Below are positions 49,268-64,000 of a stretch of DNA of 64,000 nucleotides, piece by piece. This stretch comes from Polyangiaceae bacterium. Its GTDB lineage: Bacteria > Myxococcota_A > Polyangia > Polyangiales > Polyangiaceae. Under the pieces are notes generated by a model. The model searched no databases. It saw nothing but the letters and a program-made list of their open reading frames with translations, and was not told the DNA's origin. Both the position numbers and the translations under genes were made by a program. Where the stretch lies: positions 62,001-126,000 of the forward strand of contig JAHBVX010000012.1 of NCBI GenBank assembly GCA_019637295.1, read 5' to 3'. Numbering within the stretch: position 1 is the stretch's first letter; each line of letters begins with the position of its first letter.

Positions 49268-49867
49268 TCAGCAGGAGCAGCTGGCGCAGTCGGCGCAGGG
49301 AAACCAATCGCAGCTCGACGAGCTGCAGAACTGCCACTTCTTGGTGCCGCAACACTGGAAGTTGGTTCCGCTCTTGTAGCTGCACTTCGCTCCGGCCTTG
49401 AGCTTGCACGCGCTCCAGGTGCAGTTGCTCTCGCACGCCTTCGCCTCGCAGGGATCCGAGCACGCTCCGAGATCCTCGCCGCCCGGGGTGCATACGCCTT
49501 GACCTTCACACTGCTCGGGTCCCCACTGGCCGTTCGCGTCGCAGGTCTGACGCTTGGTGCCGCACTGTCCGCAGCTGCCCGTGTCCTGCTTTTGCCCGGG
49601 CGTGCAGACCCCCGAGCTGCCGCCGGTGCCCGGGTTGCCGCCGTCGCCTGCGGCGCCCGCCATCCCCGCGGCGCCTGCGAGCGCGCCGCTGCCGCCAGAG
49701 CCGGGCATGCCTCCGGAGCTGGTCGCGCCTCCCGAGCTCGTGCCGCCGGCCCCCGCGCTCGGCAGCTCGTTGGTCGCGATATAGGTGTCGTCCGAGCAGC
49801 CACCGAGGGCGCCCGGCGCGACGATCAACGCAAGCGGAAGCGTGAACACGGGGCCGGCACGTCGCAC
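49268..49867 (-). CDS. Cys-rich exported lipoprotein with Gly-rich linker
   Basis: This 199-residue protein has a signal ending PGALGGC, a Gly/Ala/Ser-rich linker (GGTSSGGATSSGGMPGSGGS) and a Cys-rich C-terminal domain with about 20 Cys residues (CGQCGTKRQTCDANGQWGPE, QFCSSSSCDWFPCADCASCS). This is the common design of myxobacterial surface lipoproteins. The start is GTG. It converges on the giant VWA gene with 18 bases between stops. No function recognised. Confidence 0.78.
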   Translation of the reverse strand: MRRAGPVFTLPLALIVAPGALGGCSDDTYIATNELPSAGAGGTSSGGATSSGGMPGSGGSGALAGAAGMAGAAGDGGNPGTGGSSGVCTPGQKQDTGSCGQCGTKRQTCDANGQWGPEQCEGQGVCTPGGEDLGACSDPCEAKACESNCTWSACKLKAGAKCSYKSGTNFQCCGTKKWQFCSSSSCDWFPCADCASCSC

Positions 49868-55599: not shown

Positions 55600-57033
55600 A
55601 TGTCCCAGGATACACGCAAGGACCCGCGGGCGAAGGTTCTGACCATGACGGTGCGCTACAAGAGCGCGACCATCGATGAGTTCATCGAGCACCACTCCTA
55701 TGACGTCAGTCGTGGGGGGATGTTCATCAAGACCCCGTCGCCCTTTCCTCCCGGCACTCTCCTCAAGTTCGAGGTGAAGATCGCGGAGGATCAGAAGGTG
55801 ATGCAAGGGGTTGGACGCGTCGTGTGGAAGCGCGAGCCCCCCGAGGCGAGCGAGGAGCACCCGGCGGGGATGGGCGTGAAGTTCATCAAGATCGATGACG
55901 GCTCGACCAAGGTCATCGATCAGCTCGTCGCCACCCGAGGGGATGTGCCCGGGGCGTACGATTCTCAGGGGGAGGGCGGGAAGTCGGTCCCTGCCGCCGC
56001 GGTCAAGACCGTAGGCAAGCCGGCGGAGAAGCCGGTGCCCGCGGCCGAGCCGGCCGCTGCGGCGCCGGCCCCAGCGAAGGAGAAGGAGAAGGAGTCGGAG
56101 CCGATCCGCAAGGCGACCATGATCGGCCTCGGCGCGATCGGCAGCGCGCCCCGCCCGGCGGCGGCCGCGGAGCCCAAGGCCGAGGCGGACGCGGGGGAGG
56201 CCGGTGGCGGTTCGTTCTTCCCGAAGACGGAGTCCGAGAAAGACATGCCTCCGCCCGAGGACCGGACGGTCATGAAGCAGGCGGCCGAGCTGCTCGCGGA
56301 CGCGCTGCGGGAGGCCGGCGGCTCGCTGGACGAGGTCAACGAGGCCCCCAAGCCCGACGAGAAGGAAGAGCCCAAGGCAAAGCCAGTCGCGGCCGCTGAG
56401 CCCGAACCCGCGGAGGAGCCGAAGCCGGCGGTCAAGGCGGCCAAGCCGGAGCCGGAGCCGGAGCCGGAGAAGCCGGCGAAAGAGGAGCAGGCCCCGGCGT
56501 CTGACAAGCAGAAGCCCGCCGCGGCTGCCCCGCCTGCGGAGCGCCGCGTCTCCTTCGCCCCCGAGGCACCCCAGTCGGGCGGTGGCGGCAAGATCGTCTG
56601 GCTGCTGCTCGGCGTGGCTGCTGCGGCCGCGGCCGCGCTGCTGCTCACGCGAAAGACCGAGGAGCCCCCGGCGGAGGAGCCGCCGAAACCGGCAGTGACA
56701 GCGGAGGCCAAGCCCGTCGAGCCGCCGCCCCCGGAGGAGCCTCCCGCGCCTGCCGCGGACGCCGCAGCCGCCGAGCCGCCGCCGCCAGAGGAGCCGCCGC
56801 CGGAACCGAAGCCAGAGCCCGTGGCCAAGCCCGAGCCGCCGGTGGTCAAGCCCGAGCCGCCGGTGGTCAAGCCGCCGCCGCCGGTGGTCAAGCCGCCGCC
56901 GCCGGTGGTCAAGCCGCCGCCGCCGGTGGTCAAGCCGCCGCCGCCGGTGGTCAAGCCGCCGCCAGCCGAGACGGCGCCGCCCAAGCCCCCGACCCCCAAG
57001 CCTCCGCCTCCGGAGAGCGACAATCCGTACTGA
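55600..57033 (+). CDS. PilZ-domain protein with long Pro/Ala/Lys tail and membrane helix
   Basis: This 477-residue protein has an N-terminal PilZ domain of the myxococcal type (about 1-115) with both c-di-GMP motifs: RKDPR and YDVSRGGMF. A long Ala/Pro/Glu/Lys-rich stretch (120-320) leads to one membrane helix (KIVWLLLGVAAAAAAALLLT, about 329-348) and then a tail with tandem PVVKPPP units. Thus c-di-GMP sensing in the cytoplasm is linked to a proline-rich stalk across the membrane. It precedes the kinase gene by 54 bases and is probably co-transcribed. Confidence 0.85.
   Translation: MSQDTRKDPRAKVLTMTVRYKSATIDEFIEHHSYDVSRGGMFIKTPSPFPPGTLLKFEVKIAEDQKVMQGVGRVVWKREPPEASEEHPAGMGVKFIKIDDGSTKVIDQLVATRGDVPGAYDSQGEGGKSVPAAAVKTVGKPAEKPVPAAEPAAAAPAPAKEKEKESEPIRKATMIGLGAIGSAPRPAAAAEPKAEADAGEAGGGSFFPKTESEKDMPPPEDRTVMKQAAELLADALREAGGSLDEVNEAPKPDEKEEPKAKPVAAAEPEPAEEPKPAVKAAKPEPEPEPEKPAKEEQAPASDKQKPAAAAPPAERRVSFAPEAPQSGGGGKIVWLLLGVAAAAAAALLLTRKTEEPPAEEPPKPAVTAEAKPVEPPPPEEPPAPAADAAAAEPPPPEEPPPEPKPEPVAKPEPPVVKPEPPVVKPPPPVVKPPPPVVKPPPPVVKPPPPVVKPPPAETAPPKPPTPKPPPPESDNPY
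56827..56952 (+). repeat. 21-base tandem repeat (KPPPPVV)
   Basis: Six in-frame 21-base units (aag ccg ccg ccg ccg gtg gtc and near copies; the first two have gag in place of one ccg) encode KP(E/P)PPVV repeats in the PilZ protein tail. Copy number may vary between strains. Confidence 0.85.
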
Positions 57034-57087: not shown

Positions 57088-59223
57088 ATGTCGGGCCCGA
57101 CAGACCCTGCCGGCTCGAGCGAAGCGGATCCGCGCATCGGTTCCGTGCTCTCGGAGCGTTACCGCATCGATGCCTTGCTCGGTGAAGGCGGGATGGGGAA
57201 GGTCTACGCCGCAGAGCACGTGCTCATGCGCAAGAAGCTCGCGATAAAGATCCTTCATCGCGAGCTGACGTCGGTGCCCGAGGTCGTGCAGCGGTTCGAA
57301 CGCGAAGCCATGGCCGCCGCGAACATCGAGCATGCGAACGTGGCCGCCGCCACGGACTTCGGCAAGCTCGAGGATGGCTCCGTCTATTTGGTGCTCGAGT
57401 TCGTGTCCGGACGAAATCTGCGCGACGAGATTGCGGAGGGTCCGCTCTCTTTCGAGCGAGCGCTGCACGTCACCCGACAGATCGCTTCGGCCCTGGCGAG
57501 TGCTCACGAGCTCCAGATCGTCCACCGCGACTTGAAGCCAGAGAACGTGATGCTCGTGGACAAGGCTGGGGACTCGGACTTCGTGAAGGTGCTCGATTTC
57601 GGCATCGCCCGCGTGCCCATCGGCGACAGGCTGGGGGAGGGTCAGGCCATCACGAAGGTCGGGATGGTGTTCGGCACACCCGAGTACATGGCCCCCGAGC
57701 AGGCCCTCGGTCAGCCGGTCGACGGACGCGCGGACCTGTACGCGCTCGGTGTGATCTTGTTCGAGATGATCACGGGAGTGCGACCCTTCAGCAGCAAGAG
57801 CGCGGTCGGGGTGTTGGGGCAACAGCTCAGCAAGCCGCCGCCGACCTTCGCCGAGCGTGCTCCCGGGCTGCTGGTACCTCCCGCGATCGAGCAGTTCACC
57901 CACCGCTTGCTCGCCAAGGAGAGCTCGGAGCGATTCCAAACCGCCAAGGAGGTGGCGAGTCAGGCTGCCGGGCTCCTCGGCGCGGGCTCGGTTCGAGGCG
58001 TGCACGTGTTCACCCGCGCCGTGGGCACGCCGGCGGTGGCTCCGCCTCCCCCCGCGTCCATTCCGGACCTCGAGGCCCCGCTCGAGCCCGAGGCGCCGCT
58101 GCTCGTCGTGTCGCAGCCCGAGCCGCGGCCCGTGTCGCTGCCCGACAGCGCTGCGGAGTGGGAGGTGTCCGATGAAGTGCTCAGCGGCCCCGGTCGCACG
58201 CTGGTCGGTCATGCTCCGCCCGCACCCGCCGCGCCTTCGGAGCTGCCGGCGTCCGCGCAGGTGATCGAGCCCGGCCCAGCCTCCCTGGCGCTCGGGCCTG
58301 CGAAGGCCCGCGGTGTGCGGCCGCTCGAGCAGCACTGGGAGCGACTGCTCGACGGGATCGACGCGCTGCGCGGCAGGCTTCCTCCGAGCGCGCGCCGCTC
58401 TCTCGAGAACGTGCCCACGGTGGCGTTCCTCGTCGCGCTGCTGGTAGTCGTCTCCGGAGCCGTGCTCGGCGTCGTGCTCCTGATCGTCGCGCTCGCTCGG
58501 CCGAGCAAGCCAGCGCCCGTCGCGTCCAACTCCGCCACGCCGACGACGCCCGCTCCAGACGCGAGCGAGACGGCGCCGCCGGGCGACCCGGATCATGCCC
58601 CGGCAGAAGCTCTCTCCAAGGCCAAGAGCGAGGGGGCGACGGCGCTCGTGGCGCTATCCGAGAAGTATCCGAAGGACGCGCGCGTGCTGCTCGCCTTGTC
58701 GGGAGCCCAGGTCGCGCAGAAGAGTCACCTCGAGGCGCTCACCACGGTCGAGCGGGTGCTCGTGGTCAATCCCGCGCTGAACGACTCTCCGGAGCTCGCG
58801 AGCGTGCTTTGGGACCTCGCGCAGCGCAAGGACTCTCAGGAGGGGACGTTCCGGCTGCTCCAGGGACCGATGGGATCTCGCGGCGCGGACATCGTCTACG
58901 ACCTGAGCGTCAAGGGCAACGCGGTGGCCAAGGCCCGCGCCCAGAAGTGGCTGGGCACGACGGAGTTTGCGCGCGCCTCGTCGCCGGCCTTGAACGTGCT
59001 GGTGGCGCTGACCGAGGCGCGCTCCTGCACGCAGGCCCACGGGCTCTTGCTGCGAGCCAAGAACGTCGGGGACCACCGCGTGCTCGCGCTGCTCGAGGGG
59101 TGGAAGACGAAGCAGACCGGCTGCGGGCGCGCGTCGGTGGACTGCGCTTGCCTGGCCGCGGACGATCGACTCGATTCAGCGCTTGCGGAGCTCCGCAAGC
59201 GCCTCCAACCCAAAGCCCCTTAG
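57088..59223 (+). CDS. Transmembrane Ser/Thr protein kinase
   Basis: This 711-residue Hanks-type kinase has GEGGMGKVYAAEH (P-loop, about 31-43), the AIKIL lysine, HRDLKPENVM (His145-Arg-Asp147), DFGIA (Asp170) and the activation-segment end MAPEQALG, so all catalytic residues are present. A Pro-rich juxtamembrane region follows, then one membrane helix (about 445-471) and an extracytoplasmic domain of about 240 residues with TPR-like helices (LVALSEKYPKDARVLLALSG). It is downstream of the PilZ gene and its stop is two bases from the convergent DsbA-like gene. Confidence 0.93.
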   Translation: MSGPTDPAGSSEADPRIGSVLSERYRIDALLGEGGMGKVYAAEHVLMRKKLAIKILHRELTSVPEVVQRFEREAMAAANIEHANVAAATDFGKLEDGSVYLVLEFVSGRNLRDEIAEGPLSFERALHVTRQIASALASAHELQIVHRDLKPENVMLVDKAGDSDFVKVLDFGIARVPIGDRLGEGQAITKVGMVFGTPEYMAPEQALGQPVDGRADLYALGVILFEMITGVRPFSSKSAVGVLGQQLSKPPPTFAERAPGLLVPPAIEQFTHRLLAKESSERFQTAKEVASQAAGLLGAGSVRGVHVFTRAVGTPAVAPPPPASIPDLEAPLEPEAPLLVVSQPEPRPVSLPDSAAEWEVSDEVLSGPGRTLVGHAPPAPAAPSELPASAQVIEPGPASLALGPAKARGVRPLEQHWERLLDGIDALRGRLPPSARRSLENVPTVAFLVALLVVVSGAVLGVVLLIVALARPSKPAPVASNSATPTTPAPDASETAPPGDPDHAPAEALSKAKSEGATALVALSEKYPKDARVLLALSGAQVAQKSHLEALTTVERVLVVNPALNDSPELASVLWDLAQRKDSQEGTFRLLQGPMGSRGADIVYDLSVKGNAVAKARAQKWLGTTEFARASSPALNVLVALTEARSCTQAHGLLLRAKNVGDHRVLALLEGWKTKQTGCGRASVDCACLAADDRLDSALAELRKRLQPKAP

Positions 59224-59225
59224 GG

Positions 59226-61253
59226 CTACTTGCTCGCTGCCGCCCGGCGGCCTGCCCGAGCGTCCGCCAGGGATAGCCGCACGACGCGCTTGAAGCGCGC
59301 GGGGGGTTGGGCACCCGAGACGAAGTAGCCGTTGATCACGGTCCCCGGCGTGCCCTTGATGCCGGCAGACTTCGCCAGCTGCTCGTCGCGCGAGATGGCT
59401 GCATCATGGCGCCCGTCCTCGAGTGCCTTGGCGAAGCGTGCCCGATCGAGCCCGAGGCTCGCCGCGTAGCGTTCGAGCGCCGGGAGCTCCAGGCCGCCCT
59501 CGCTGCGCTGATTCTCGAACAGCAGATCGTGCATCTGCCAGAACCCCTTGTCCCCCCGCTGGGCGTGCGCCTCGAGGGCGGCCGCCGCCGCAAGTCGGGC
59601 GTTCTTGTGGTGCGGGAGCGGGAGGTTGCGCCACACGATGCGCACCTGGCCGGGGAAGGCGGCCACCAGCTCGTCCAGCGTGGGGCCGAGTCGCTTGCAG
59701 AACGGGCACTCGAAGTCCGAGAACACCTGCACCACCACTGGCGCGCCAGCCGCGCCTCGCGACGGTAGGCCGCGACCCGCAGCGGGCAGCGACTTGATCT
59801 CGGGCGGCTCCGGACCCTCGGCGTCCTGTTGCAGAGCTGCATACAGGCCGGCGCGGGGGGTCCCACTTCGGACCTTCTCATCCGCCTCGAGCAGCGCGAG
59901 GTCGATCACCTCCGCGAACTTTTCGATCGGCTGGGCGCCCGTCAGCTGGCGCCCGTTGATGAAGAAGTTCGGAGTTCCTCGGGCACCGATGTCTTCGGCC
60001 AGATCCTGGTCTTGCTGAATGACGGGGTGGGCCTTCTGCTTCCACGCAGCCTTCAGGCGCCGGGAGTCGAGCCTCAGCTGTCGCGCGATGTCGAGCAGCA
60101 CCGTGTCGCTCAAGTCCGAGGCGGACGCGAACAGCAGTTCGTCCGCCTGCCAGAACGCCGCGCTGCCGCGCTGGGCGTGCGCCTCGATGGCCAGCACGGC
60201 GGCTGGGACGGCGCGGTCGTGAAAGGGTAAGGGGTTGTGCTTTCGCACCAGTCGGACGCGCCCGGCGTACCGGCGCAGGACCTCCGCCATCGTGGCGTGC
60301 GCCCGCTTGCAGTACGGGCACTGATAGTCCGTAAACTCCACTATGGTGACCAGCGCGTCTGCGGGGCCGCGCACCGGGGAGCTGCCGACCGGGACCTTCC
60401 GCGGACGGGCCTCGGCGCTCGGGCGCGCGTCCGCGGAGGATGGCTCGGCTCGCTGGTGGTTCTCCGCCACACGCCGGGAATAGATGCGGTCCTTGGCGAC
60501 ACCGCTCCGGGCCAGCTCCTCGGTCGCGGCGAGCTCCGCGTCGATGATCTTGCGAAACTCGTCGATCGGCTGCGCGCCGCTCAGCGCTGCGCCATTGATG
60601 CGGAAGGCGGGGGTCCCGGTCGCCCCCAGGGCCTTGGCCAGGTCCATGTCCCGGCCCACCTTGTCGCGGAGCGATCCATCGCGGACCTTGGCGATGAGCT
60701 CATTGCGCCCAACGCCCACCTCGTCAGCCCACGCGAGCAGGTTGGCGTCGGTCAGCTCACGCTGTCCGTCGAACAGCCGCCCAGCGTAGGCGTCGAAGGC
60801 GGCGCTTCCGCGCAGCTCGTAGACGGCCTGTGCCGCCACCGCCGCGGGGATCGCGTCTTGGTGAAACGGCAGGGGATTGTGCTTGAACACGACGCGCAGC
60901 GCGCGCGGTCCGTAGCTCTGCTTGAGTTGCTCGAGCGTGACGTGGGCGCGAGCGCAGAAGGGACACTGAAAGTCCGTGAACACGACCACGGTGACCGGGG
61001 CCTCGGCGTCGCCCCACACGGGATCGAGCGCCTCGACGGGGATCTGCTCGGAGCTGGGGCCCGGGGCTCGCCCGAGGGCAGGGTTAGCGGCCGAGTCCTC
61101 GCCCGGCTCTCGCACGATCGTCGGCTGCTCGGTCGCGACGGTCGCCGTGTGCGGTGCGGCGTGGCGCTGTGCACACCCCAAAAAGACGAAAGCCAGGGCG
61201 ATCACGAGGATCGCCCTGGCCAGCTCATTCCCCCCCGGGAAGCGAATCGTCAC
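59226..61253 (-). CDS. Triple DsbA-like thioredoxin-domain lipoprotein
   Basis: This protein of about 675 residues has a lipoprotein signal (VIALAFVFLGC, Cys27) and three DsbA-like thioredoxin domains in tandem with active sites CPFC (97-100), CPYC (312-315) and CPFC (516-519), each followed by a cis-Pro GTP loop (ATGTPAFRIN, ARGTPNFFIN, IKGTPGTVIN) and a GAQP motif. It should make, break or shuffle disulfides outside the cytoplasm. The GTG start overlaps the stop of the upstream triple-DsbA gene (GTGA), which fixes the start; longer in-frame extension is antisense or shadow. Confidence 0.87.
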   Translation of the reverse strand: MTIRFPGGNELARAILVIALAFVFLGCAQRHAAPHTATVATEQPTIVREPGEDSAANPALGRAPGPSSEQIPVEALDPVWGDAEAPVTVVVFTDFQCPFCARAHVTLEQLKQSYGPRALRVVFKHNPLPFHQDAIPAAVAAQAVYELRGSAAFDAYAGRLFDGQRELTDANLLAWADEVGVGRNELIAKVRDGSLRDKVGRDMDLAKALGATGTPAFRINGAALSGAQPIDEFRKIIDAELAATEELARSGVAKDRIYSRRVAENHQRAEPSSADARPSAEARPRKVPVGSSPVRGPADALVTIVEFTDYQCPYCKRAHATMAEVLRRYAGRVRLVRKHNPLPFHDRAVPAAVLAIEAHAQRGSAAFWQADELLFASASDLSDTVLLDIARQLRLDSRRLKAAWKQKAHPVIQQDQDLAEDIGARGTPNFFINGRQLTGAQPIEKFAEVIDLALLEADEKVRSGTPRAGLYAALQQDAEGPEPPEIKSLPAAGRGLPSRGAAGAPVVVQVFSDFECPFCKRLGPTLDELVAAFPGQVRIVWRNLPLPHHKNARLAAAAALEAHAQRGDKGFWQMHDLLFENQRSEGGLELPALERYAASLGLDRARFAKALEDGRHDAAISRDEQLAKSAGIKGTPGTVINGYFVSGAQPPARFKRVVRLSLADARAGRRAAASK

Positions 61254-63193
61254 TTCGCTTCCTTGAGGGCGCGGTTGATGACCTTCTTGAACGCCGCCGT
61301 CGGCTGAGCGCCGCTGACGTAGTAGCCGTTGATCACGAAAGCCGGCGTGCCGCTGATGCCCGCCTTGTTCGCGATCTCGGCGTCCTTCTCGACGCGCGCC
61401 TTGTGGGTGCGGTTGTCGAGCGCTGCCTTGAACTTGCCCATGTCGAGGCCGATGGCCGTAGCCATCTTGTCGAGCGCCTCGCGCTTGAGGTCCTGCTGGT
61501 TCTCGAACAGCTTGTCGTGGCACTGCCAGAAGGCGTCCTTGCCCTTCTGGGCCATGGCCTCGCGACAAGCCTCCGCCGCAAGCGGAGCGTCCTGGTGGAA
61601 CGGCAGCGGCAGATCGCGCCAGACGATCTTGATCTTGTTGCCGTACTCCTTGAGCAGCTCATCCATCGTCGGATTGACGCGCTTGCAGAACGGGCACTGA
61701 AACTCGCTCCACTCTTGGATGACGACCTTGGCGTTGGCTCCGCCCTTGAATGGACTGTCGGCGTCCGGCGCGGGCACGTCCTTCTTCTCGGGTGGCGGCG
61801 GCTCTTTGCCTTCCTTCATGATCTCGTCGTAGACCTTGGCGCGCGCCACGCCGCGATCGACGATCGCCTTCGCCTTGCCCAGCTCCTCGTCGATGATCTT
61901 CTTGAAGTTGTCGAAGGGCTGAGCCCCCGACAGGCGCCGACCATTGATGAAGAAGTGCGGCGTACCGCGCGCTTCAACCTCGCCGGCGAGCTCGGTGTTG
62001 GCGTCGATCTTGTCGCCGTAGCGACCCGAGTCGATAGCGGCCTTGGTCGCGTCCCAGGGCAGCCCGATCTTCTCGGCGACGGCCTTGAGGTCCTCGTCCT
62101 CGAGCTTCGGCTGGCTCTCGAACAGCGCGGCGTGCGCGGCCCAGAAGCCCTCGTTGCCCTTCGTCTTGTAGGCGTGCCGTGCCAGGATGGCGGCGGGCTT
62201 GGCGCGCGGGTGAAACGGCAGGATGTTGTCCTTCCACACGAAGCGGACGTCCTTGCCGTAGGTGTCCTTGATCTGCTTGATCGTGTCGCCCACGCGCTTG
62301 CAGAAGGGGCACTGGAACTCGCTCCACTCCACGATCGTGACGAGCGCATCCTTCGGTCCCGCCTGCGGGTCGTCCTCGAAGACAGGGACCTTCCAGACCG
62401 TGGTGTCGGGCGGAGGTTCAGCCGGACGCTCCTGCGGCTGGGCTGCCTCGGGAGCGGCGGTGGCGTTCTTCTTCGAGAGCTCCACGTACACGCGCTCCTT
62501 GGGTGTCCCGGACGCGACGAGCTTCTGGGCCTCGGCCAGCTGCTGGTCGATGACCTCCTTGAACTTCTCGAAGGGCTGCGCGCCGACCAACGTCACGCCG
62601 TTGATGCGGAACGCGGGCGTGCCGGTAGCGCCGACCTTGGTGGCCATGGCCATGTCCTCCTGCACCTTCGCGGCGTACTTCTTGGTCGAGAAGGCCTCGT
62701 TGAACTTGGCCATGTCCACGCCGGACTGCTGCGCCCAGCTCTTGATGTTCTCCTCCGTGAGCGCGCGCTGATTCTGGAAGGCCAGATCGTGGAACTTCCA
62801 GAACGCGTCGTTGCCGGCGAGAGCGTGGATGGCGGCGGAGGCCTCGTGCACGGGCACGGCGGCCTTGTGGAACGGCAGCGGCTGGTGCTTCCACACGATG
62901 CGGACCTTCTCGGGGCCGTAGGTCTTCTTGACCTGGTCGAGGGTAGGCCCGACCCGGCTGCAGAATGGACACTCGAAATCGCTGATCTCCACGATGGTGA
63001 CCAGGGCGTCCGAGTTGCCCCACTGGGGATCGGCAGCCGTGACCGGAACTGGAGAGTCGCTGTGGTCCAAGCCACCTGCGGCGCTCGACTCGGGGCCGAT
63101 GGCAACACCCTTGCTGCGATCGATGCCCCACATCAGGCCCATCCCTGCCAAGAAGCAGAGGAAGAACCCGACGATGGCGGTTCCCTTGTTCAT
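61250..63193 (-). CDS. Triple DsbA-like thioredoxin-domain membrane-anchored protein
   Basis: This 647-residue paralogue has an N-terminal membrane anchor (TAIVGFFLCFLAGMGLMWGI) and three DsbA-like domains with CPFC at 75-78, 295-298 and 500-503, each with a cis-Pro loop (GTPAFRING, GTPHFFING, GTPAFVING). Linkers between domains are Pro/Glu/Lys-rich. ATG 63193 has a GGAG site; the in-frame extension upstream is not protein-like. It is the first gene of a two-gene operon, and the anchor and the lipid of its partner would place six thioredoxin domains in the periplasm. Confidence 0.88.
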   Translation of the reverse strand: MNKGTAIVGFFLCFLAGMGLMWGIDRSKGVAIGPESSAAGGLDHSDSPVPVTAADPQWGNSDALVTIVEISDFECPFCSRVGPTLDQVKKTYGPEKVRIVWKHQPLPFHKAAVPVHEASAAIHALAGNDAFWKFHDLAFQNQRALTEENIKSWAQQSGVDMAKFNEAFSTKKYAAKVQEDMAMATKVGATGTPAFRINGVTLVGAQPFEKFKEVIDQQLAEAQKLVASGTPKERVYVELSKKNATAAPEAAQPQERPAEPPPDTTVWKVPVFEDDPQAGPKDALVTIVEWSEFQCPFCKRVGDTIKQIKDTYGKDVRFVWKDNILPFHPRAKPAAILARHAYKTKGNEGFWAAHAALFESQPKLEDEDLKAVAEKIGLPWDATKAAIDSGRYGDKIDANTELAGEVEARGTPHFFINGRRLSGAQPFDNFKKIIDEELGKAKAIVDRGVARAKVYDEIMKEGKEPPPPEKKDVPAPDADSPFKGGANAKVVIQEWSEFQCPFCKRVNPTMDELLKEYGNKIKIVWRDLPLPFHQDAPLAAEACREAMAQKGKDAFWQCHDKLFENQQDLKREALDKMATAIGLDMGKFKAALDNRTHKARVEKDAEIANKAGISGTPAFVINGYYVSGAQPTAAFKKVINRALKEAK

Positions 63194-63337
63194 GATAATC
63201 TCCTGAATGAATGATGACGTGAAACAGAGCTGGAGCGCCCGCAACGGTCTAGCCAGGTATGGCAGGGCCACGCACCGGATGTGCTGAGCGCAGGCGACCA
63301 GAGATTCGTGAGGCGGAAGAGCGCGCGCGGGGCGCGC

Positions 63338-63730
63338 TCAGGACCGCGGGGGCCGGAACACGCCTTGGCGATGGTCTTCATCGTGGCGCGCACGTTCGGC
63401 GACTGGGACTGGCACGCGATCGCCCTTGCGCCCGAGGGCCCAAGCGACGCTGACCGGAAGGACTCGCTCGTGAGGGGGAGGCGTGGTGACGCTCCCGTCG
63501 GGTGCTCGTGACTGGCCGACGTCGAACTCCGAGGTTGCGGCATCGCAGCCTGGACGCAGCTCCCCGCCTCGAGTCGGCATGAGCGGGAACGGCGCGGCGA
63601 TGCTCTGTGCGTCTTCACCACACATCGGAACCGAGCCCCACGCCAGCTTGGGCAGCAGCACGCCGAGCACCGCAGCGCACACCGACAGCGCAAGGCGTGC
63701 GCTAGGGCAGAGGCGACAGACGGCAGACAT
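63338..63730 (-). CDS. Small exported protein of unknown function
   Basis: This 130-residue frame has a signal peptide (LALSVCAAVLGVLLPKLAWG), then SVPMCGEDAQSIAAPFPLMP and a later ERVLPVSVAWALGRKGDRVP. The pattern is protein-like and has the look of small secreted myxobacterial proteins. The ATG at 63730 is chosen; a GTG lies three codons upstream. It may be co-regulated with the DsbA pair because it is on the same strand 145 bases upstream. No family recognised. Confidence 0.5.
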   Translation of the reverse strand: MSAVCRLCPSARLALSVCAAVLGVLLPKLAWGSVPMCGEDAQSIAAPFPLMPTRGGELRPGCDAATSEFDVGQSRAPDGSVTTPPPHERVLPVSVAWALGRKGDRVPVPVAERARHDEDHRQGVFRPPRS

Positions 63731-63870
63731 GGCGTACACGGCGCGGGCAGTCTACTCGCTGCCGCACGACGCGGTAACCCGCTATCTCGGAGCCCCATTC
63801 CCCGCCTCCGCTGCCAGGGAACGACGCCGGTTTGTTGGCCACCTTATCCTACATTGGCACCATCGGGCCC

Positions 63871-64000
63871 ATGGCGGAGCCTGGCGAGTCACGCAACCCA
63901 TCGAAATCCGGTGAGAAAACTGCGAGCTCGGAGGTCCTGCCTCGGGCCTTTGGGCGGCTGACGCTGCTCCGCCAGCTCGCCCGGGGCGGGATGGGCGAAG
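63871..64000 (+). CDS. Ser/Thr protein kinase, N-terminal fragment cut by the window edge
   Basis: From ATG 63871 the frame is open to the last base and reads MAEPGESRNPSKSGEKTASS, then EVLPRAFGRLTLLRQLARGG and MGE. The FGRL-LL-RGGMGE pattern is the start of the glycine-rich P-loop of bacterial Ser/Thr kinases, as in the complete kinase at 57088. Only 43 codons are visible. It is divergent from the small exported protein. Confidence 0.75.
   Translation, partial: MAEPGESRNPSKSGEKTASSEVLPRAFGRLTLLRQLARGGMGE

Follow-up and report, generated by a model that had tools for sequence, protein, structure and literature searches.

The window analyzed here, a 64,000-nucleotide stretch of a Polyangiaceae bacterium (contig JAHBVX010000012.1, positions 62,001 to 126,000 of the forward strand), contains two overlapping minus-strand genes, termed A and B, which each encode an anchored protein with three complete DsbA-like domains. 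They belong to a family of tandem DsbA proteins with two to seven domains per chain that occurs throughout the phylum, in several classes of Myxococcota. In the functional reading that we prefer, with a probability of roughly 0.45, A and B would be multi-site disulfide isomerases or reductases, covalent counterparts of ScsC that are served by a DsbD-type reductant and preceded by a redox-responsive leader.

Domains and anchors of the A and B proteins

In each protein, Pfam profiles detected three stretches of Thioredoxin_4 and three of DSBA, with Thioredoxin_4 E-values of 1e-76 and 2e-72. Every domain exceeded the profile cut-off for the DsbA-like thioredoxin fold (PF01323/PF13462) and carried both a CxxC site and a cis-Pro loop. 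The sites in A are CPFC at residues 75, 295, and 500, and those in B are CPFC at 97, CPYC at 312, and CPFC at 516, with a GTP (Thr-cisPro) loop in all six domains. Among 25 triple proteins the active-site CxxC and the Thr-cisPro were invariant, apart from one CPFS. A first-pass annotation made from the sequence had proposed six intact DsbA-like domains with CPFC or CPYC sites and cis-Pro loops, one protein tethered by a membrane helix and the other by a lipid, and joint production of the pair. Pfam and motif reading agree on the domains, the tethers correspond to a helix at residues 3-27 of A and an FLGC lipobox in B, and joint production was borne out by the GTGA at 61250-61253, where the GTG start of B is shared with the stop of A. 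The start of B is thus at 61253; an open reading frame (ORF) from the TTG at 61568 is merely the longest possible frame. The coordinates of all features are collected in Table 1.

The anchor helix of A was 84% identical in 16 orthologues as compared to 65-68% for the domains, which is unusual for a mere anchor. The lipoprotein signal of B is kept in nearly all B orthologues. An AlphaFold2 model of A, built on a 25-sequence alignment, displayed three confident DsbA folds and the N-terminal helix (mean predicted local distance difference test score, pLDDT, of 89.6; predicted template modeling score, pTM, of 0.48), with low-confidence linkers at residues 25-41 and 246-258. The combination of confident domains and a low pTM fits a beads-on-a-string arrangement in which the mutual placement of the domains would not be fixed.

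The frames of A and B are open and real. The pair is syntenic across many independent genomes, and ratios of nonsynonymous to synonymous substitution rates (dN/dS) against the nearest relative were 0.15 for A and 0.30 for B. This purifying selection indicates that the genes are neither decayed nor artefactual. Furthermore, the six domains are 36-52% mutually identical, which makes them too diverged to result from assembly collapse or duplication. A promoter and terminator scan gave no signal above chance; the unit probably begins further upstream, with the small ORF that precedes A.

The best Foldseek matches of the domains were BdbD, Corynebacterium diphtheriae DsbA/TsdA, and ScsC. The first two best match single A/B domains, but they are themselves single-domain proteins with BdbC or VKOR as partner, and BdbD has CPSC-type sites. 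The best NCBIfam model was NF041057, the Rcas_1661 family thioredoxin-like (seleno)lipoproteins, which includes selenocysteine (Sec) forms and matched three times in each protein. This model is single-domain, however, and A is no lipoprotein. With the cut-off at 190 bits, single A/B domains reached 71-101 bits, and the whole chains (270 and 239 bits) passed only through summing of three domains. The proteins differ from classical DsbA (PRK10954) in score (31 vs 279 bits), in having three domains instead of one, and in carrying CPFC or CPYC rather than CPHC. Eukaryotic PDI/ERp72 and UGGT likewise possess several thioredoxin-fold domains per chain, and Foldseek aligned the tandem Trx-like domains of UGGT. 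Nevertheless, PDI domains are classical thioredoxin folds, the Trx-like domains of UGGT are non-catalytic, and A and B have no sequence kinship to either.

Table 1. Positions of the A/B genes, their domains and signals, and flanking features in the window.
Feature	Position	Strand	Basis or remark
Convergent Ser/Thr kinase, transmembrane helix, extracytoplasmic C-terminus	57088..59223	plus	synteny kept in family
Gene B, 675 aa lipoprotein, three DsbA-like domains	59226..61253	minus	GTG start
B domain 3	59268..59759, CPFC 59697-59708	minus	Pfam and motif
B domain 2	59868..60371, CPYC 60309-60320	minus	Pfam and motif
B domain 1	60504..61022, CPFC 60954-60965	minus	Pfam and motif
B lipobox FLGC, lipidated Cys27	61173..61184	minus	sequence reading and orthologues
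Gene A, 647 aa, membrane-anchored, three DsbA-like domains	61250..63193	minus	ATG at 63193
A domain 3	61253..61744, CPFC 61685-61696	minus	Pfam and motif
A domain 2	61856..62359, CPFC 62300-62311	minus	Pfam and motif
A domain 1	62510..63028, CPFC 62960-62971	minus	Pfam and motif
A N-terminal anchor helix (MNKGTAIVGFFLCFLAGMGLMWGIDR)	63113..63193	minus	AlphaFold2 and orthologue comparison
AGGAG ribosome-binding site of gene A	63200..63204	minus	direct reading
Small secreted ORF, ~130 aa, signal sequence, VPMCGEDAQSIAAPFP, second Cys, C-terminal FRPPRS	63338..63739	minus	sequence and orthologues
Start of divergent double Ser/Thr kinase gene	63871..64000, continues past window (L029 13872-16604)	plus	synteny kept in family

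Origin, spread and selenocysteine forms of tandem DsbAs

By its named relatives the host is a Polyangiaceae-like myxobacterium. A phylogeny of 118 domains was constructed, and a reduced set was used for support values and approximately unbiased (AU) tests. The domains formed clades by position, A1 with B1, A2 with B2, and A3 with B3, supported in the reduced set by values of 99, 99, and 96. Gene-wise clades, corresponding to independent triplication of A and B, were rejected with AU p-values of 3e-44 and 1e-63. The triplication therefore preceded the duplication that produced A and B, which settles the order of events that the first-pass annotation had proposed to examine by a phylogeny of the six separate domains. 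Domain 3 of order-level single triples falls in the same clade as A3 and B3. In one locus (L066) A1 and B1 are almost identical and the remainder differs, which suggests later gene conversion.

Matches were found in 143 of the 144 genomes of the class and in all 236 of the phylum. Counted among the matches listed, at least 82 phylum genomes had a match spanning at least two domains, and 43 of these genomes lie outside the class. Domain scans of the fetched loci, a sample biased to A-like matches, revealed 27 two-domain, 85 three-domain, and 11 four-domain proteins, and CxxC or UxxC was retained in 343 of 353 sampled tandem domains. The earlier designation as triple fusions is accurate for A and B, which do have three domains each, but too narrow for the family. 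Outside Myxococcota, a scan with search patterns drawn from A gave single-domain relatives only. A minus-strand frame from position 937 of locus L194 (genome G281) encodes seven catalytic DsbA domains in one lipoprotein, apparently through a 4+3 duplication, with domains 4 and 7 being 95% identical. In large genomes that we guess to be Sorangium-like (L078-L086), seven domains are distributed as 2+3+2 over three adjacent genes.

In some relatives the codon for the first Cys of the active site is replaced by TGA, in one domain (L069, L070, L191), in two (L095-L097, L189 of G278, L190 of G331), or in all three (L187 and L188, G314). A hairpin with a GGTC loop that resembles a selenocysteine insertion sequence directly follows the in-frame TGA, and the relatives have 18 Sec sites. 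The hairpin core GTCGGTCCGAC was present at 13 of 13 Sec sites, whereas of 21 Cys sites with an identical encoded peptide motif only 2 had it. SelB scored above the cut-off in G124, G080, G086, and G105 and tRNA-Sec in the first three of these, in a check that left out G314, G278, G331, and G260, the genomes of L187-L191. Judged by the catalytic UGA, the downstream hairpin, tRNA-Sec, and SelB, the tandem DsbAs of these relatives are predicted selenoproteins. The occurrence of Sec at the nucleophilic position indicates that this residue does chemistry.

The host of A and B is itself probably able to make selenoproteins; its genome contains tRNA-Sec (C25:45250-45346) and SelB (C19:835839), both above cut-off. 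Nevertheless, A and B have Cys in their active sites. The DsbA-like selenoproteins listed in a 2026 review contain one Sec (PMC13188914). Arrays of DsbA domains with several selenocysteines would put selenium to an unusual use.

The architecture itself has been seen before: a 2009 atlas of thioredoxin folds (PMC2757866) already noted DsbA-like sequences with two or three DSBA domains in its BdbD cluster. That atlas contains no analysis of organisms, operon, Sec, upstream ORF (uORF), or function, and chains with four or seven domains were not reported. The first-pass annotation had asked whether such fusions might be a characterized family; multi-DSBA chains had thus been noticed, and our literature search on Sec-containing DsbA in myxobacteria, Rcas_1661, and tandem DsbA function found no functional work. 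The phylum-wide spread, the four- and seven-domain chains, the multi-Sec sites, and the conserved ORF upstream of A appear to be undescribed in the literature searched.

Redox partners, upstream ORF and possible function

The architecture can be compared with that of Proteus mirabilis ScsC and Wolbachia alpha-DsbA2. These proteins share with A and B a BdbD/ScsC-type domain (phmmer E ~1e-14; Foldseek matches) and three catalytic sites per particle with a flexible linker. In ScsC and alpha-DsbA2 three identical chains are joined by an N-terminal trimerization region, whereas A and B consist of three diverged domains in one chain that is anchored to the membrane or by a lipid. No trimerization stalk of the ScsC type is present; A begins with its anchor helix, which leads into a disordered linker. 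The model of A does have several catalytic domains on flexible linkers. Three flexibly linked sites in one chain would give an arrangement similar to that of trimeric ScsC. Removal of the trimer stalk or stiffening of the linker abolishes the isomerase activity of ScsC, and the monomer becomes an oxidase (PMC5524982).

In the reading that we prefer, A and B would act as envelope thiol-disulfide exchange enzymes, with an inner-membrane anchor for A and a lipid anchor for B. Each chain would carry three independently mobile, fully catalytic BdbD/ScsC-type domains and be a covalent counterpart of the homotrimeric DsbA-like isomerases. Several sites on flexible tethers could attack, hold, and reshuffle disulfides of the same client, while a DsbD-type protein would supply the reducing power that keeps the sites active. 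The small protein with a Cys pair and RPPR end may be a leader that tunes expression of A, and possibly B, to the redox state of the envelope, perhaps through translation arrest. In this reading the isomerase or reductase direction, the choice of redox partner and clients, and what the leader does are inferences.

A search for redox partners, as suggested in the first-pass annotation, found no DsbB in the host genome, one VKOR-DsbA fusion whose DsbA domain has its own CPFC, and one DsbD_TM protein that ends in a thioredoxin domain. Within the class, DsbD_TM was present in 139 of 144 genomes, VKOR in 96, and a recognizable DsbB in 3. Seven genomes of at least 95% completeness (G088, G022, G031, G040, G048, G107, G129) encode full triples and DsbD_TM without recognizable VKOR or DsbB. 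This combination leans towards a reductive or isomerase role, although it is no proof.

The small ORF, overlooked in the first-pass annotation, lies 144 nucleotides upstream of A on the same strand and had no family match in Pfam or NCBIfam. Orthologues of it are found ahead of A in most loci of Polyangiaceae, and also ahead of tandem genes that belong to related families or are of four-domain type. Of 50 RPPR-ending ORFs in the fetched loci, 31 were located 100-900 nucleotides upstream of a same-strand DsbA gene, and a C-terminal ending of the RPP type occurred upstream of 42 of 85 operon-leading tandem genes as compared to 6.2% of background windows. The two Cys columns were kept in 27 and 29 of 29 aligned members, which had been selected by RPPR. 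The codon differences (dN/dS 0.2-0.33) show the pattern of a real protein.

A 2025 study described uORFs ending in RAPP or RGPP upstream of DsbA-family and thioredoxin genes, with arrest shown for several Streptomyces cases; its text does not contain RPPR (PMC12992588). Like the arrest peptides ApdA and ApdP of that study, the protein encoded by the small ORF is short, has a signal sequence, and is encoded upstream on the same strand as an envelope gene. A C-terminal Arg/Pro motif near the stop and a Cys pair are also shared, and some of the arrest peptides are found upstream of DsbA-family genes. Since the Cys pair and the C-terminal RPPR resemble RAPP-type arrest peptides, our guess is that the small ORF could be a disulfide-sensing leader of tandem DsbA genes. 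Such a protein might be a nascent-chain sensor of envelope redox, an input to disulfide folding for which there are so far only hints.

The main alternative is that A and B are oxidases, with six DsbA sites that are recharged by the VKOR-DsbA fusion and provide a high local oxidizing capacity for Cys-rich secreted proteins. The fusion in the host, the frequency of VKOR in the class, and the oxidases BdbD and C. diphtheriae DsbA among the nearest folds agree with this. It is more difficult to reconcile with the seven near-complete relatives that have full triples and no recognizable VKOR or DsbB, and with the Sec nucleophile in relatives, which is more typical of reductive chemistry. We consider oxidation a real possibility, with odds well short of even.

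Several observations weigh against the isomerase or reductase reading. The VKOR-DsbA fusion means that an oxidizing route exists in the host, the Thr-cisPro is found in oxidases such as BdbD too, and DsbD_TM proteins serve cytochrome c maturation as well. Furthermore, VKOR or DsbB in the relatives could be too diverged for detection. With respect to the leader, the 144 nucleotides preceding A had no excess RNA structure over shuffles (z +1.5), so that a SecM-like RNA switch is unsupported here, and the small ORF ends in RPPR instead of RAPP or RGPP.

If A and B are indeed isomerases or reductases, the means by which multiple sites are brought together would be of interest. The known bacterial disulfide isomerases obtain multiple active sites by oligomerizing, whereas Myxococcota would have arrived at them repeatedly through concatenation, with as many as seven sites. 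Concatenation would also allow domain number, domain order, and active-site knock-outs to be tested within one chain. The broader proposal that Myxococcota replaced oligomeric isomerases with arrays of two to seven DsbA domains, some all-Sec, under redox-dependent arrest of an RPPR leader is doubtful at present.

Neighboring genes and kinase-linked paralogues

Genes for Ser/Thr kinases flank A and B on both sides, an arrangement that is kept in many Polyangiaceae loci. Besides the kinases, a PilZ protein and a MatE transporter are conserved as neighbors of the pair. Four Cys residues (665, 697, 704, and 706) in the extracytoplasmic part of the convergent kinase are conserved, and through them it could be linked to A and B.

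A paralogue in the same genome (L023 16433-18739, C5) combines a degenerate kinase-like region, a transmembrane helix, and two DsbA domains, and the same layout was observed in L173, L174, and L178. The first DsbA domain of these proteins lacks the resolving Cys and reads CPHT in L023, L173, and L178. The kinase assignment of the L023 paralogue and its orthologues is weak, with Pfam E-values of 7e-4 to 0.05 and none above cut-off. Two other genes (L177 1399-5610 and L099 3137-7516) encode an N-terminal FHA domain and two C-terminal DsbA domains in one chain. A Mycobacterium tuberculosis Ser/Thr kinase with an extracellular DSBA domain is known (PMC1262709). It shares the kinase-transmembrane-DsbA fusion with the C5 paralogue, which differs by its degenerate kinase region and its two DsbA domains.

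These genes raise the possibility that A and B function in redox signaling by setting the disulfide state of the extracytoplasmic Cys domain of the flanking kinase. The conserved kinases on both sides, the four Cys residues, the fusions of kinase-like or FHA domains to tandem DsbA by way of a transmembrane helix, and the mycobacterial precedent all point in this direction. Kinases are very numerous in myxobacteria, however, synteny alone is no proof of function, and A and B lack a cytoplasmic signaling domain, which makes this role improbable. Even less credible is a role for A and B in serving one dedicated client, as in metal or cytochrome maturation, where the tandem arrangement would raise the dose and nothing else. 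Single-domain relatives do include copper-resistance ScsC proteins, but no maturation genes adjoin the pair, the conserved neighbors being those given above. An assembly or reading-frame artefact, named beforehand as what would overturn the description of the pair, is ruled out by the orthologous pairs in many independent assemblies and the dN/dS values, and its chance is practically nil.

The window further contains an ORF at 49268-49867 for a lipoprotein-like, Cys-rich polypeptide (199 aa, 21 Cys) that has no family match. The suggestion in the first-pass annotation that A and B process this protein was based solely on a proximity of ~9 kb, and no supporting evidence was found. Another gene (55600-57033), which keeps its synteny with the kinase and with A and B, encodes a PilZ-domain protein whose long Pro/Val/Lys tail is repetitive.

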